From the NCBI GenBank assembly GCA_945865535.1, contig CAMBDW010000001.1, forward strand, positions 62,001-126,000: a stretch of DNA of 64,000 nucleotides, given 5' to 3'. How positions within the stretch are numbered: position 1 is the stretch's first letter; every line of letters starts with the position of its first letter. This DNA is from Chryseobacterium gleum (GTDB lineage Bacteria; Bacteroidota; Bacteroidia; Flavobacteriales; BACL11). Positions 40,216-44,088 of this stretch are shown piece by piece. Under the pieces are notes generated by a model. That model had not been told where the DNA came from. It saw only the letters and a list, made by a program, of their open reading frames with translations, and did not search any database. A program made the position numbers and the translations under genes.

Positions 40216-42639
40216 TTAATAAAGTGGTGGAAATTTTTCAGGATTTGCCTCATGCATCATTGCATAAACTTTTTCAAATATATCTTCTGCAGAAGGCTTT
40301 GTAAAATAATCACCATCCTTTCCGTAGGGAGGCCTGTGCTCTTTAGCAGCTAATGTTTGAGGTTCGGAATCTAAAAAACTATAAGCATTTTGATCTTCAA
40401 TTATTTGTTGTAAAATATATGCTGAGGCGCCCCCTGGAACATCTTCATCAATGACTAATAATCTGTTGGTTTTCTTTACACTTTCTCCAATATCATGAGA
40501 TAAATCAAAAGGAACTAAAGTTTGTGTATCAATAACCTCACAGGAAATTCCTGCTCTTTCTAACTTTTCAGCAGCATCCATCACGACTTTCCAAGTGCTA
40601 CCGTAAGTAACTAATGTAATATCACTTCCTTCTTTGGTGATTTCTACTTTTCCTAAAGGAACTCTAAATTCACCAATATTATTCGGTAATTTTTCTTTTA
40701 TTCTATAACCATTTAAACATTCTATAATCATTCCAGGATCATTAGCTTGCATTAATGTATTATAAAATCCTGCAGCTCTTGTCATATCTCTTGGTACGCA
40801 TAAATACATACCTCTTGTTCCATTAAGTAGCATTCCCATAGGAGATCCTGAATGCCAAATACCTTCAAGTCTATGTCCTCTTGTTCTAATAATTAAAGGT
40901 GTAAGTTGTCCTCCATGAGTTCTGTAGAATAAAGAGGAAATATCGTCAACCATTGGCTGGAAGCCATAAATTACATAATCCAAATATTGCATTTCAGCAA
41001 TTGGTTTTAATCCTCTTAAAGATAACCCAATACCTTGGCCAATAATTGTTGCTTCCCTAATTCCGGTATCAGCAACTCTACTTTCTCCAAACTTTAATTG
41101 TAATCCTTCAACACCTTGGTTTACACCACCAATCTTACCAACATCCTCTCCAAAAATCATAGCTTCAGGTATAGCCTCAAACATATGATGAAAATTATCT
41201 CTTAAAATAATTCTAGCATCCACTAATTCTGAATTTGAATCATAGGTTGGCTTTACTTCAGCAACATTTAAAGCAGAGGTTTTGGTTTCGTTATAAAGTT
41301 TGGTATTGTAGCGATTATGATTTTCAGCATTAATTCGATTAATAAATTTTCGTAAAGTAGTTTTTTCAACAATATCGGATTTCGTAAGCATGCCTAATAA
41401 ATTTCTTGCTTTACTCAAATAATCTCTTCTAAAAATACCAAACACTGCTGACTGATTTAAATCCGATATCCACTCTGCAATTTCTGGAATATTCACCTGT
41501 GCTGAAATGGCATTAAAAATTGCTTGTAGTTCTTTCCATTCCTCTTTAATTGGAGCTTGATATTCTATCCAAGCATCCTTTTTTGCTTGTTTAACAGTCT
41601 CTACAGCTTGGGTTTCTATTGCCTCTAACTCCTGAATTTCAGCAATACCTGTTTCTAACATCCACTCTTTAAATTTCTTTATGCAATCAAAATCTTGTTC
41701 AAATTGCAATCTTTCTTTGCTTTTGTATCTCTCGTGTGAACCAGAGGTAGAATGACCTGTAGGTTGAGTCATTTCAATAACATGAATAATTGAAGGAATA
41801 TGATTTTCTCTGGCTAACTTTTCTGCATTTTCATAAACAGTAACTAATGATGGATAATCCCATCCTTTTACTTTCACAATCTCAAATCCTTTTCCTTTTT
41901 CATTATTTTGAAACCCAGACAAAACCTCTGAAACATCTGATTTTGTCATCTGTAAATCATTAGCAACTGAAATGCCATAACCATCATCCCAAATAGAAAT
42001 AATTGCAGGCACCTGAAGCACTCCAATTGCGTTTACAGCTTCCCAAAAATGACCTTCTGCACAAGAGGAATTACCAATTGTTGCAAATGCAATTTCATTA
42101 CCTCCACTTGTAAAACCAGGATTTCTTTTTGCTAAATCAGGATTATCTCTATATACTTTTGATGCTTGTGCCAATCCAACTAATCTTGGAAATTGAGATG
42201 CCAAACAAGCCATATCAGAAGTAGAATTTTTTTGCTCCATTAAATTTCTCCAACTACCATCATGATTTAAAAATCTTGTCCCAAAATGATTCATCATTTG
42301 TCTTGATCCTGAACTTGGCTCCCTATCTAACTCAGGGTCACCATATAAGGCCGAAAACATTTGTTTTGGGGAGTATTGGCCAATAGCAGTCATTAATGTT
42401 TGATCCCTGTAGTATCCCGCACGAAAATCACCATTTCTAAAAACTTTAGCTAAAGCAACTTGAGCCAATTCCTTTCCATCACCAAAAATACCAAAGCTAC
42501 CTTTTCCCGAAAGCACATCTCTCCTTCCCTGCGCTCCACTTTCCCTTACTTCACAAACTAATTTATAATCTGATATAATGGATTCTTTAAATTGGTCTTT
42601 TGAAATTTTAGTTTTTGTTTTAGCTGTTGACATACTCAT
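40216..42639 (-). CDS. Branched-chain 2-oxoacid dehydrogenase E1, alpha-beta fusion
   Basis: Thiamine-diphosphate enzyme, 807 residues, with the E1 alpha part (about 1-400: GKGSFGIFGDGKELAQVALA, FATIGNSSCAEGHFWEAVNA, WDDGYGISVAN) and the E1 beta part (about 465-807: FGEDVGKIGGVNQGVEGLQL, GLSLRGLKPIAEMQYLDYV, VTYGSTWKVV, VIDTQTLVPFD) fused in one chain. The beta part is of the transketolase type. Similarity suggests the branched-chain 2-oxoacid complex, and possibly pyruvate, producing acyl-CoA with E2/E3 elsewhere. First gene of an operon with murQ and DUF6095. A TAAATTTG element is 25 bases before the start. Confidence 0.88.
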   Translation of the reverse strand: MSMSTAKTKTKISKDQFKESIISDYKLVCEVRESGAQGRRDVLSGKGSFGIFGDGKELAQVALAKVFRNGDFRAGYYRDQTLMTAIGQYSPKQMFSALYGDPELDREPSSGSRQMMNHFGTRFLNHDGSWRNLMEQKNSTSDMACLASQFPRLVGLAQASKVYRDNPDLAKRNPGFTSGGNEIAFATIGNSSCAEGHFWEAVNAIGVLQVPAIISIWDDGYGISVANDLQMTKSDVSEVLSGFQNNEKGKGFEIVKVKGWDYPSLVTVYENAEKLARENHIPSIIHVIEMTQPTGHSTSGSHERYKSKERLQFEQDFDCIKKFKEWMLETGIAEIQELEAIETQAVETVKQAKKDAWIEYQAPIKEEWKELQAIFNAISAQVNIPEIAEWISDLNQSAVFGIFRRDYLSKARNLLGMLTKSDIVEKTTLRKFINRINAENHNRYNTKLYNETKTSALNVAEVKPTYDSNSELVDARIILRDNFHHMFEAIPEAMIFGEDVGKIGGVNQGVEGLQLKFGESRVADTGIREATIIGQGIGLSLRGLKPIAEMQYLDYVIYGFQPMVDDISSLFYRTHGGQLTPLIIRTRGHRLEGIWHSGSPMGMLLNGTRGMYLCVPRDMTRAAGFYNTLMQANDPGMIIECLNGYRIKEKLPNNIGEFRVPLGKVEITKEGSDITLVTYGSTWKVVMDAAEKLERAGISCEVIDTQTLVPFDLSHDIGESVKKTNRLLVIDEDVPGGASAYILQQIIEDQNAYSFLDSEPQTLAAKEHRPPYGKDGDYFTKPSAEDIFEKVYAMMHEANPEKFPPLY

Positions 42640-42664
42640 TATAAAAATTTTAAATACAAGTTTG

Positions 42665-42672
42665 CAAATTTA
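42665..42672 (-). promoter_or_regulatory. Bacteroidota -7 promoter element for the E1-murQ operon
   Basis: On the minus strand it reads TAAATTTG (TAnnTTTG), 25 bases before ATG 42639. Confidence 0.5.
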
Positions 42673-42764
42673 GTTAAATTTTATGATTTTTATCCCGTTT
42701 CTGAAAATTGAAAACTGAAAAAAATATTTTTCTTTAATTTTCTCTTCAGTTTGCAAAAGATTTC

Positions 42765-42772
42765 TATTTTTG
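42765..42772 (+). promoter_or_regulatory. Bacteroidota -7 promoter element for rpsP-rimM
   Basis: TATTTTTG matches TAnnTTTG. A transcript from here would have a leader of about 55 nt before the rpsP ATG at 42832. Confidence 0.6.
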
Positions 42773-42777
42773 CAGCC

Positions 42778-42817
42778 CCTCAATAATGAGGACTAACCAC
42801 AGAGTTGGTTTAACCAA
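42778..42817 (+). promoter_or_regulatory. Structured leader of rpsP with alternative hairpins
   Basis: The leader has a first hairpin CCTCA/TGAGG (42778-42791, loop ATAA). After it lie three complementary segments: AACCA (42795-42799), TTGGTT (42805-42810) and ACCAA (42813-42817). The middle one can pair with either neighbour (5 bp with loop CAGAGT or 5 bp with loop TTA) but not both. Such an arrangement could switch, for example through binding of a ribosomal protein, but function is inferred. Confidence 0.4.
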
Positions 42818-42831
42818 ATTAAAAAAAGCAA

Positions 42832-43557
42832 ATGGCAACAAAAATTAGATTATCAAGACATGGAAGAAAAAAACAAGCATTTTTCCATATTGTAGTAGCA
42901 GACACAAGAGCTCCAAGAAACGGTAGATTTATTGAGAAATTAGGAACTTATAATCCTAACACTAATCCAGCAACAATTGATATAAACTTTGACAGTGCAG
43001 TTGCTTGGCTACTAAAAGGTGCTCAACCTTCTGACACGGCCAAAGCAATCCTATCTTACAAAGGAGTAATGATGAAAAAACACTTAATGGCTGGTGTAGC
43101 TAAAGGTGCTTTTAATGAAGAAGAAGCTGAAAATAGATTTTCGGCTTGGATGGAGAAGAAAGAAGGGCAAGTTACAGATAAAAAAGCAGGTTTAAAACAA
43201 GCGGCTTTAGCTGCTGAAAAAGCGGCTTTAGCTGCTGAAAAAACAAAAAGCACTGAAAGAGCTGCTGCTGCACTTCAAAGCGCTCAAGTAGCAGAAACAA
43301 CTTCTACAGCTGAAGAAGTAACAACTGAAGAAACTACTGAGGAGGTTGCTGATGGAACTACTCATGAAGTTGTTGAAGAAGTAACAGCTGAAGAAGCTAC
43401 TGAAGAAACTACTGAGGAGGTTGCTGAAGAAACTACTCATGAAGTTATTGAAGAAGTAAAAGCTGAAGAAACTACTCAAGAAGTTGTTGAAGAAATAAAA
43501 GCTGAAGAAGCTACTGAAGAAACTCCTGCTGAAGAAGAAAAATCAGAAGAAGTTTAA
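42832..43557 (+). CDS. rpsP: Ribosomal protein bS16 with a long acidic C-terminal extension
   Basis: Small-subunit ribosomal protein. The first about 85 residues are bS16 (MATKIRLSRHGRKKQAFFHI, VVADTRAPRNGRFIEKLGTY). After about residue 120 comes a tail of about 110-120 residues made of repeats around EEVTAEEATEETTEEV, EEVKAEETTQEV and EEIKAEEATEET, nearly all Glu, Thr, Ala and Val with no aromatic residue. Total length, 241 residues, compares with about 80 for E. coli bS16; longer forms occur in Bacteroidota but this acidic tail is marked. The DNA repeats (43310-43550) suggest growth by repeat expansion. Operon with rimM, 9 bp apart. Confidence 0.93.
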   Translation: MATKIRLSRHGRKKQAFFHIVVADTRAPRNGRFIEKLGTYNPNTNPATIDINFDSAVAWLLKGAQPSDTAKAILSYKGVMMKKHLMAGVAKGAFNEEEAENRFSAWMEKKEGQVTDKKAGLKQAALAAEKAALAAEKTKSTERAAAALQSAQVAETTSTAEEVTTEETTEEVADGTTHEVVEEVTAEEATEETTEEVAEETTHEVIEEVKAEETTQEVVEEIKAEEATEETPAEEEKSEEV

Positions 43558-43566
43558 TACCAAAGC

Positions 43567-44088
43567 ATGCAGAAAAAAGATTGCTTCTTAGTTGGAACAG
43601 TTTTTAAATTGCACGGATATAAAGGGGATGTCAATATCTATAATGATGATGACATCCTTTTTGATTTTAATACAATTAAGTATTTTTTAATCGAGCGAAA
43701 CAATACCCTTGTACCCTTTTTTATAACTAAAGCACGCCACACAAAACCAAATATTATTCTTGTAAAGTTTGAAGATATAAACTCTGAAAAAGAAGCTTTA
43801 TCAATTCTAAAACAAAAGGTTTATTTGCCCATTGAGTTTTTACCAGAAATCGATAGCAATGAAATCTCTGAGAAACAACTTATAGGCTTTAAAGTAATTG
43901 ATATTAAGCTAGGAGAATTAGGAGAGATAAGCTATATCAACTCACAAACGGCACAGCAATTAATTTATGTAAGTAAAGATGGGAAAGAATTCTGTTTTCC
44001 TATGCACAAGCAATTTATTATTAGTGTGGATTCCAAAAAAAGAATTATGGAAGTGACTATACCAGAAGATTTGATAAACTTAAACTAA
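43567..44088 (+). CDS. rimM: Ribosome maturation factor
   Basis: Assists 30S subunit assembly near the 3' head domain of 16S rRNA. The 173-residue protein opens DCFLVGTVFKLHGYKGDVNI (RimM N-domain), continues with VKFEDINSEKEALSILKQKV and ends in a PRC-barrel domain (about 100-170: LIGFKVIDIKLGELGEISYI, QLIYV, FPMHKQFI). It follows rpsP by 9 bp, a common pairing. Its 3' end overlaps the convergent saccharopine dehydrogenase gene by 9 bp. Confidence 0.92.
   Translation: MQKKDCFLVGTVFKLHGYKGDVNIYNDDDILFDFNTIKYFLIERNNTLVPFFITKARHTKPNIILVKFEDINSEKEALSILKQKVYLPIEFLPEIDSNEISEKQLIGFKVIDIKLGELGEISYINSQTAQQLIYVSKDGKEFCFPMHKQFIISVDSKKRIMEVTIPEDLINLN

Follow-up and report, generated by a model that had tools for sequence, protein, structure and literature searches.

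A conserved leader of rpsP in a family of Flavobacteriales and its likeness to the S16 leader

In the 64 000 nt stretch of DNA analysed here (the window), which comes from an assembly classified as Chryseobacterium gleum, the gene of ribosomal protein S16 is preceded by a short leader with several potential hairpins. An earlier note had read this leader, from the single sequence, as carrying two mutually exclusive hairpins with the geometry of a translational switch, possibly one of autoregulation by bS16 or a partner. What kind of element is this leader, and which of its pairings are maintained in related genomes?

The rpsP locus and conservation of its leader

The rpsP gene (42832..43557, plus strand; start codon ATG at 42832–42834) encodes a 30S ribosomal protein S16 of 241 amino acids, identified by Pfam PF00886 and by NCBIfam NF011094 and TIGR00002, all over cut-off. 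Gene order is tight: rimM, encoding the ribosome maturation factor (43567..44088, plus strand; TIGR02273 and Pfam RimM over cut-off), follows downstream after 9 nt. A gap of 192 nt separates rpsP from a divergent gene, the top NCBIfam matches of which, to pyruvate dehydrogenase E1 subunits, stay under the cut-offs. The −7 promoter element TATTTTTG is located at 42765..42772 (plus strand), and TAnnTTTG, the Bacteroidota −7 promoter consensus, is present there in 40/40 family leaders read. Transcription of rpsP probably starts a few bases 3′ of this element, which would place the first hairpin of the leader, H0, at the 5′ end of the mRNA. No terminator-like site was found in 42600–42900, and attenuation was rejected on this ground.

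S16 ends in a long low-complexity C-terminal tail (43174–43557), in which E, A, T and V abound and units resembling EEVTAEEATEE recur; the open frames of full-length S16 matches in relatives span 114 to 489 amino acids. The window also carries a bacterial class A RNase P RNA at 581–881 on the minus strand (215 bits).

A search for S16 in 100 relatives gave a match in 81 genomes, and 80 leaders were read from 79 of them (G039, with a split match, and G099, at a contig end, were left out). Forty of these leaders, from 39 genomes, belong to the family of the window; they comprise 35 distinct leaders, and one genome (G025) contributes two copies. The leader element is kept in all 40. The region of hairpin H1 (see below) is present in 40/40, and the motif UUUAACCAAA in all except G030, which has UUAAACCAAA. 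Identity across the family leaders is 0.922 in the 31 nt core, against 0.504 in the 42 nt that come before the promoter element; it is 0.673 in the 16 nt preceding the core and 0.665 in the 10 nt following it.

With E ≤ 4.5e-10, a covariance model built from the family leaders of 39 genomes (R1) identifies rpsP leaders, at 41 places, in 40 of 52 family genomes; among the matches listed for 105 genomes, the one that follows has E = 1.2e-4. The 40 positive genomes, of which 39 supplied the training leaders, are exactly those with an S16 match; the 12 others are the 12 without one, and 10 of these are less than 90 per cent complete. R1 also recovers the leader of G102, a genome of the neighbouring family f9 that was absent from the training set, at E = 6e-9. 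Run on 39 loci from outside the family, a set without L028 and L029, the model gave 22 matches at E ≤ 10, nine of them on the rpsP leader by coordinates: G102, three other f9 loci (0.074–2.9), L059 (0.31) and four loci of one genus (6.6–8.2). The weak matches may stem simply from A-rich leaders and have no proof value. Across the order, 48 of 395 genomes match the core pattern. Its occurrences in G102 and G103 sit at rpsP, and outside the family there are 16 further matches besides these two and the next four. The four examined occurrences away from rpsP were treated as chance: that of G013 lies inside an open frame of 261 amino acids, with a similar stretch in G023, and those of G001 and G148 have no S16 gene behind them.

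Judged from these sequence comparisons, the rpsP leader is a real, strongly conserved control element, and its conservation is what exceeds chance.

One family genome, G025, has two rpsP copies with unlike leaders (G025:C10 and G025:C21; L024 and L031). The matched frame of one of them contains an in-frame TAG, and the bin may be mixed.

Pairing within the leader

The segments described in the earlier note are where it placed them: AACCA at 42795–42799, TTGGTT at 42805–42810 and ACCAA at 42813–42817, the last ending 14 nt ahead of the ATG, with a separate 5′ stem formed by CCTCA (42778–42782) and TGAGG (42787–42791). They permit two hairpins, H1 (AACCA-CAGAGT-TGGTT; 42795..42810, plus strand) and H2 (TTGGT-TTA-ACCAA; 42805..42817, plus strand). 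Their predicted energies are nearly equal, −2.8 versus −2.9 kcal/mol when excised and −3.3 versus −2.9 kcal/mol within the leader, and each has a probability of about 0.2 in the ensemble of the window. In the best predicted fold, the pairing is in a third, shifted register, ACUAAC/GUUGGU (42792–42809).

The segments for two competing hairpins are there, as the earlier note had it, but such geometry is common by chance. Of 5000 dinucleotide shuffles of 42778–42831, 499 (about 10%) contain two hairpins that share an arm, each with at least 5 pairs (G-U allowed) and a loop of 3–8 nt; so do 1012 of the 6395 54-mers taken from the plus strand of the window. The fold of 42776–42850 has z = −1.34 against shuffles, 19 of 200 of which fold as well. 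Competing hairpins read off one sequence are therefore weak evidence here.

Comparison of relatives separates the two stems. H1 is paired in 99.4% of cells, with one double change in the family. Its third pair is C-G or U-G and is mismatched in G030. The fourth pair has changed twice from C-G to U-A, in G026 and in G102, each time with compensation; all 41 rows of a hand alignment, made up of the 40 family leaders and G102, have it paired (p = 3.2e-4, uncorrected for 649 column pairs). The energy of H1 in the 35 distinct leaders is −2.7 or −2.8 in 14, −0.7 in one, −0.1 in 12 and 0.0 in eight, so that on its own the hairpin is nearly without stability in most relatives. H2 is paired in 84% of cells and has no covariation in the family leaders. 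Of the 35 distinct leaders, 33 keep its four-pair form and two (G026 and G030) have it broken; the fifth pair is found in nine, and the energy is −2.9 in nine, −2.0 in 24 and 0.0 in two. H1 is the better supported stem of the pair.

Covariation of the three segments was the test proposed in the earlier note. Segments 1 and 2 change jointly on both occasions, whereas segment 3 follows in G102 only; in G026 it fails to follow, and H2 is therefore lost there.

How do these data bear on a switch in which H1 and H2 exclude each other, bS16 or another factor trapping H1, and H2 forming before the start codon otherwise? The near-equal energies in the window are in its favour, and so is the persistence of H2, which in 19 of 20 AAUCA-type leaders is predicted to be the stabler hairpin of the two. 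G102 changes all three segments jointly (C/G/C to U/A/U), but this genome belongs to the neighbouring family, its segment 3 joins with an additional G-U pair, and its best predicted fold is H1 without H2. The base of the fifth H2 pair is U only alongside the strong AACC form (9/9 rows, five changes on the tree), a link that fails a tree-aware test (four independent pairs, on average 1.4 in the same direction and none in the opposite one) and can also be accounted for by the shifted register. The absence of family covariation in H2, its loss in two relatives, the frequency of the geometry in shuffles and the occurrence of a hairpin of at least 4 pairs at the H2 place in just one of 33 leaders of other families all argue against it. 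The alternation of H1 and H2 as a switch may occur but is unproven, and we consider it improbable.

At window position 42805 (column 36 of the MAFFT alignment A1), U is present in nine of 16 rows with AACC or AACU and in none of 25 rows with AAUC.

The 5′ hairpin H0 (CCTCA-ATAA-TGAGG; 42778..42791, plus strand) is firm in the predicted ensemble (pairing probability 0.75–0.99 per pair). It is paired in 96% of cells, with zero double changes, over the 35 distinct leaders of A1, an alignment that puts H0 in the wrong place in some rows. In genus g8, the best predicted fold of the two distinct leaders swaps H0 for a pairing of segment 1 with an upstream stretch. None of 33 leaders of other families has the H0 sequence. 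Ten of them carry a 5′ hairpin that differs from H0 in sequence and includes two or more G-C pairs, and nine of these ten share their loop class with the S16 hairpin. In its present sequence, H0 is probably a family-specific structure of the 5′ end.

Proposed relation to the S16 leader of Flavobacteria

A leader upstream of rpsP and rimM has been described in Flavobacteria as the S16 leader (RF03138), its ligand S16 being inferred from gene position (Eckert & Weinberg 2020, PMC7247131). A 2024 review (PMC10931766) states that information is lacking on how the Escherichia coli operon containing rpsP is regulated, and that Shine–Dalgarno pairing is not used by Flavobacteria. In the open-licence literature, we found no paper on the form of leader present in the window's family.

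The RF03138 consensus is AUUAAU-AACC-GAGGU-CGAGA-ACCUC-AAAA-AUUAAU, that is, a hairpin of 5 bp with a loop of five bases inside an AACC/AAAA internal loop and an outer helix. The leader of the window resembles it in its location upstream of rpsP–rimM in the same bacterial order, in its short hairpin just before the start codon, and in an AU-rich possible closing helix. H1 has a stem of 5 bp, with a loop of six bases in the window but of CGAGA or CGTGA, as in RF03138-type leaders, in eight of the 35 distinct family leaders. On its pairing, double changes and loop type, we propose H1 as the counterpart of the RF03138 inner hairpin. The window's leader differs by its A/U-rich stem, its six-base loop CAGAGU, the absence of the AACC/AAAA internal loop, the conserved UUUAACCAAA and the 5′ hairpin CCUCA/UGAGG. 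It also differs in that the Rfam model detects neither this leader nor the rest of its family. Even when E values as high as 10 are allowed, RF03138 does not match the leader of the window, and Rfam searches of the window found no leader family, whether the threshold was gathering or permissive. In the 52 family genomes, searched with stricter filters, RF03138 gives six weak matches, none at the rpsP leader. Five of the 100 relatives exceed its cut-off (G087, G079, G084, G068 and G053), all outside the window's family. Because the leader gives no score at the membership level of at least 35.7 bits and lacks the internal loop, we do not assign it to RF03138; it may still function alike.

The 33 leaders from 13 other families, out of 40 non-family leaders read, all have an rpsP-proximal hairpin with a loop of five or six bases (33/33), mostly of the CGAGA, CGAGU, CGUGU or UUCGG type. 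The hairpin is of the RF03138 type. Its stem shows 26 doubly changed cells over 35 distinct sequences (the 33 leaders and five named loci picked by eye, duplicates dropped; L113 and L133, with no evident hairpin, omitted). In the corresponding alignment (A2), 11 of the 38 leaders had their hairpin placed manually, and row L035 is misaligned. A CGWGW loop on a stem of 5 bp arose in at most 8 of 5000 shuffles for each of five relatives tested. A covariance model of this hairpin (R2) gave zero matches on H1 among 31 loci of the family and its neighbour at E ≤ 10, and one match (L062, E = 6) falls across the 5′ portion of a leader. Since both RF03138 and R2 miss the family leaders, kinship rests on place, loop and stem rather than on a model score. 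Two forms are seen in the neighbouring family f9: three of its leaders carry an ACUA-CAGAGA/U-UAGU hairpin, and the genomes G102 and G103 have GGACUAACUA-CGAGA-UAGUUUAACUGA, a form intermediate between the types.

The S4, S15 and L13 leaders of Flavobacteria or Bacteroidia listed in PMC7247131 are likewise lineage-restricted leaders of ribosomal protein operons in the same phylum; they precede other genes, and the comparison with them consisted of the Rfam scans, which turned up no leader family in this stretch of DNA.

Several other rpsP leaders were observed on the way. In family f16 (L070, L077, L078 and L079; genomes of 0.3–0.6 Mb), the scan found four rpsP leaders without a G-C-containing hairpin. 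A second hairpin with a CGAGA, CGUGU or CGGGA loop lies 5′ of the S16 hairpin in L037, L049 and L054 (f2), L066, L072 and L073 (f10), L074–L076 (f15) and L059 (f3); the S16 element seems to be doubled in these leaders. A different conserved rpsP leader, CCCCGCWG..CUCCGGG followed by AUGU-UGAAY-ACAU, is found in Mucilaginibacter, Daejeonella, Pararcticibacter and others, in 23 of 80 named loci (L121, L137, L139 and 20 more). In one family, 29 of 61 genomes contain its core pattern, whereas its long pattern occurs in one of 119 across the class; the five examples tested gave no Rfam match at the leader at E ≤ 0.5. The variant L112, CUGU-UGAAU-ACAG, is a possible compensated form.

Possible modes of control

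Taken together, conservation, position, the absence of a terminator-like site and the likeness to the published S16 leader of Flavobacteria argue for a translational, probably bS16-responsive leader. This general part of the earlier proposal is supported; its specific H1/H2 switch is the improbable part. We favour, with moderate confidence, the reading that the leader is a diverged, lineage-specific form of the Flavobacteriales S16 leader, through which bS16 would act on the translation of its own rpsP–rimM message. The stem-loop at 42795–42810 with its flanks would be the putative binding site for free bS16. When in excess of 16S rRNA, bS16 would bind this stem-loop and fix the weak hairpin and its closing pairs, about 10–20 nt upstream of the start codon. 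The fixed hairpin would bar the 30S subunit from the message and lower the translation of both rpsP and rimM.

The closing pairs may belong to a larger fold around H1, in which TAAT (42784–87) pairs with ATTA (42818–21) and GG (42790–91) with CC (42814–15) (42784..42821, plus strand), and which excludes H0. Its outer helix resembles that of RF03138. One outer pair is A-U in 31, U-A in nine and unpaired in one of the 41 rows; on the S16 gene tree, five independent contrasts for this pair gave four in the same direction, none in the opposite one and one unchanged, for which the sign test gives p = 0.125. The column pair 15/49 of the hand alignment ranks third of 649 (p = 4.6e-5, pairing in 38/41 rows), and the pair 15/48 has p = 0.0023 (pairing in 40/41), but this ranking also gives p values down to 3e-5 to columns that do not pair, probably because the 5′ flank varies in length. 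The GG/CC pair is invariant, and the fold is 2.2 kcal/mol worse than H0 with H1 (−7.2 vs −9.4). On three of five measures it scores above every one of 500 shuffles, a test that sequences can pass through relatedness, without any structure. The extended fold is suggestive only.

A different switch could be built on it, H0 and the extended bS16-binding fold using the same GAGG segment, so that binding of bS16 would melt H0. We regard this two-state leader as unlikely, on the evidence just given. If true, it would be an S16 leader whose 5′ hairpin became a competitor, since the leaders read in other families show no such hairpin or one apart from the S16 hairpin.

An element of initiation or mRNA stability that works without bS16, the 5′ hairpin protecting the message and UUUAACCAAA at its fixed distance aiding the loading of the 30S subunit, would fit the thermodynamic weakness of H1. 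It would also fit the position of AACCAAA, 9–13 nt from the start codon in 40/40 leaders, and the retention of UUUAACCAAA even where its partners change, as in G026 (in G030 it differs by one base). This explanation leaves unaccounted for both the compensated changes in H1 and the loop common to the S16 leaders of other families, and we hold it to be doubtful.

A whole family of small-genome Flavobacteriales thus has an rpsP leader that is missed by the current Rfam model. On the favoured reading, that of a diverged bS16 leader, it would offer, with the neighbouring family (G102, G072), a series of forms with the catalogued S16 leader at one end and a very different leader at the other, and such a series would be useful for asking what bS16 recognises.
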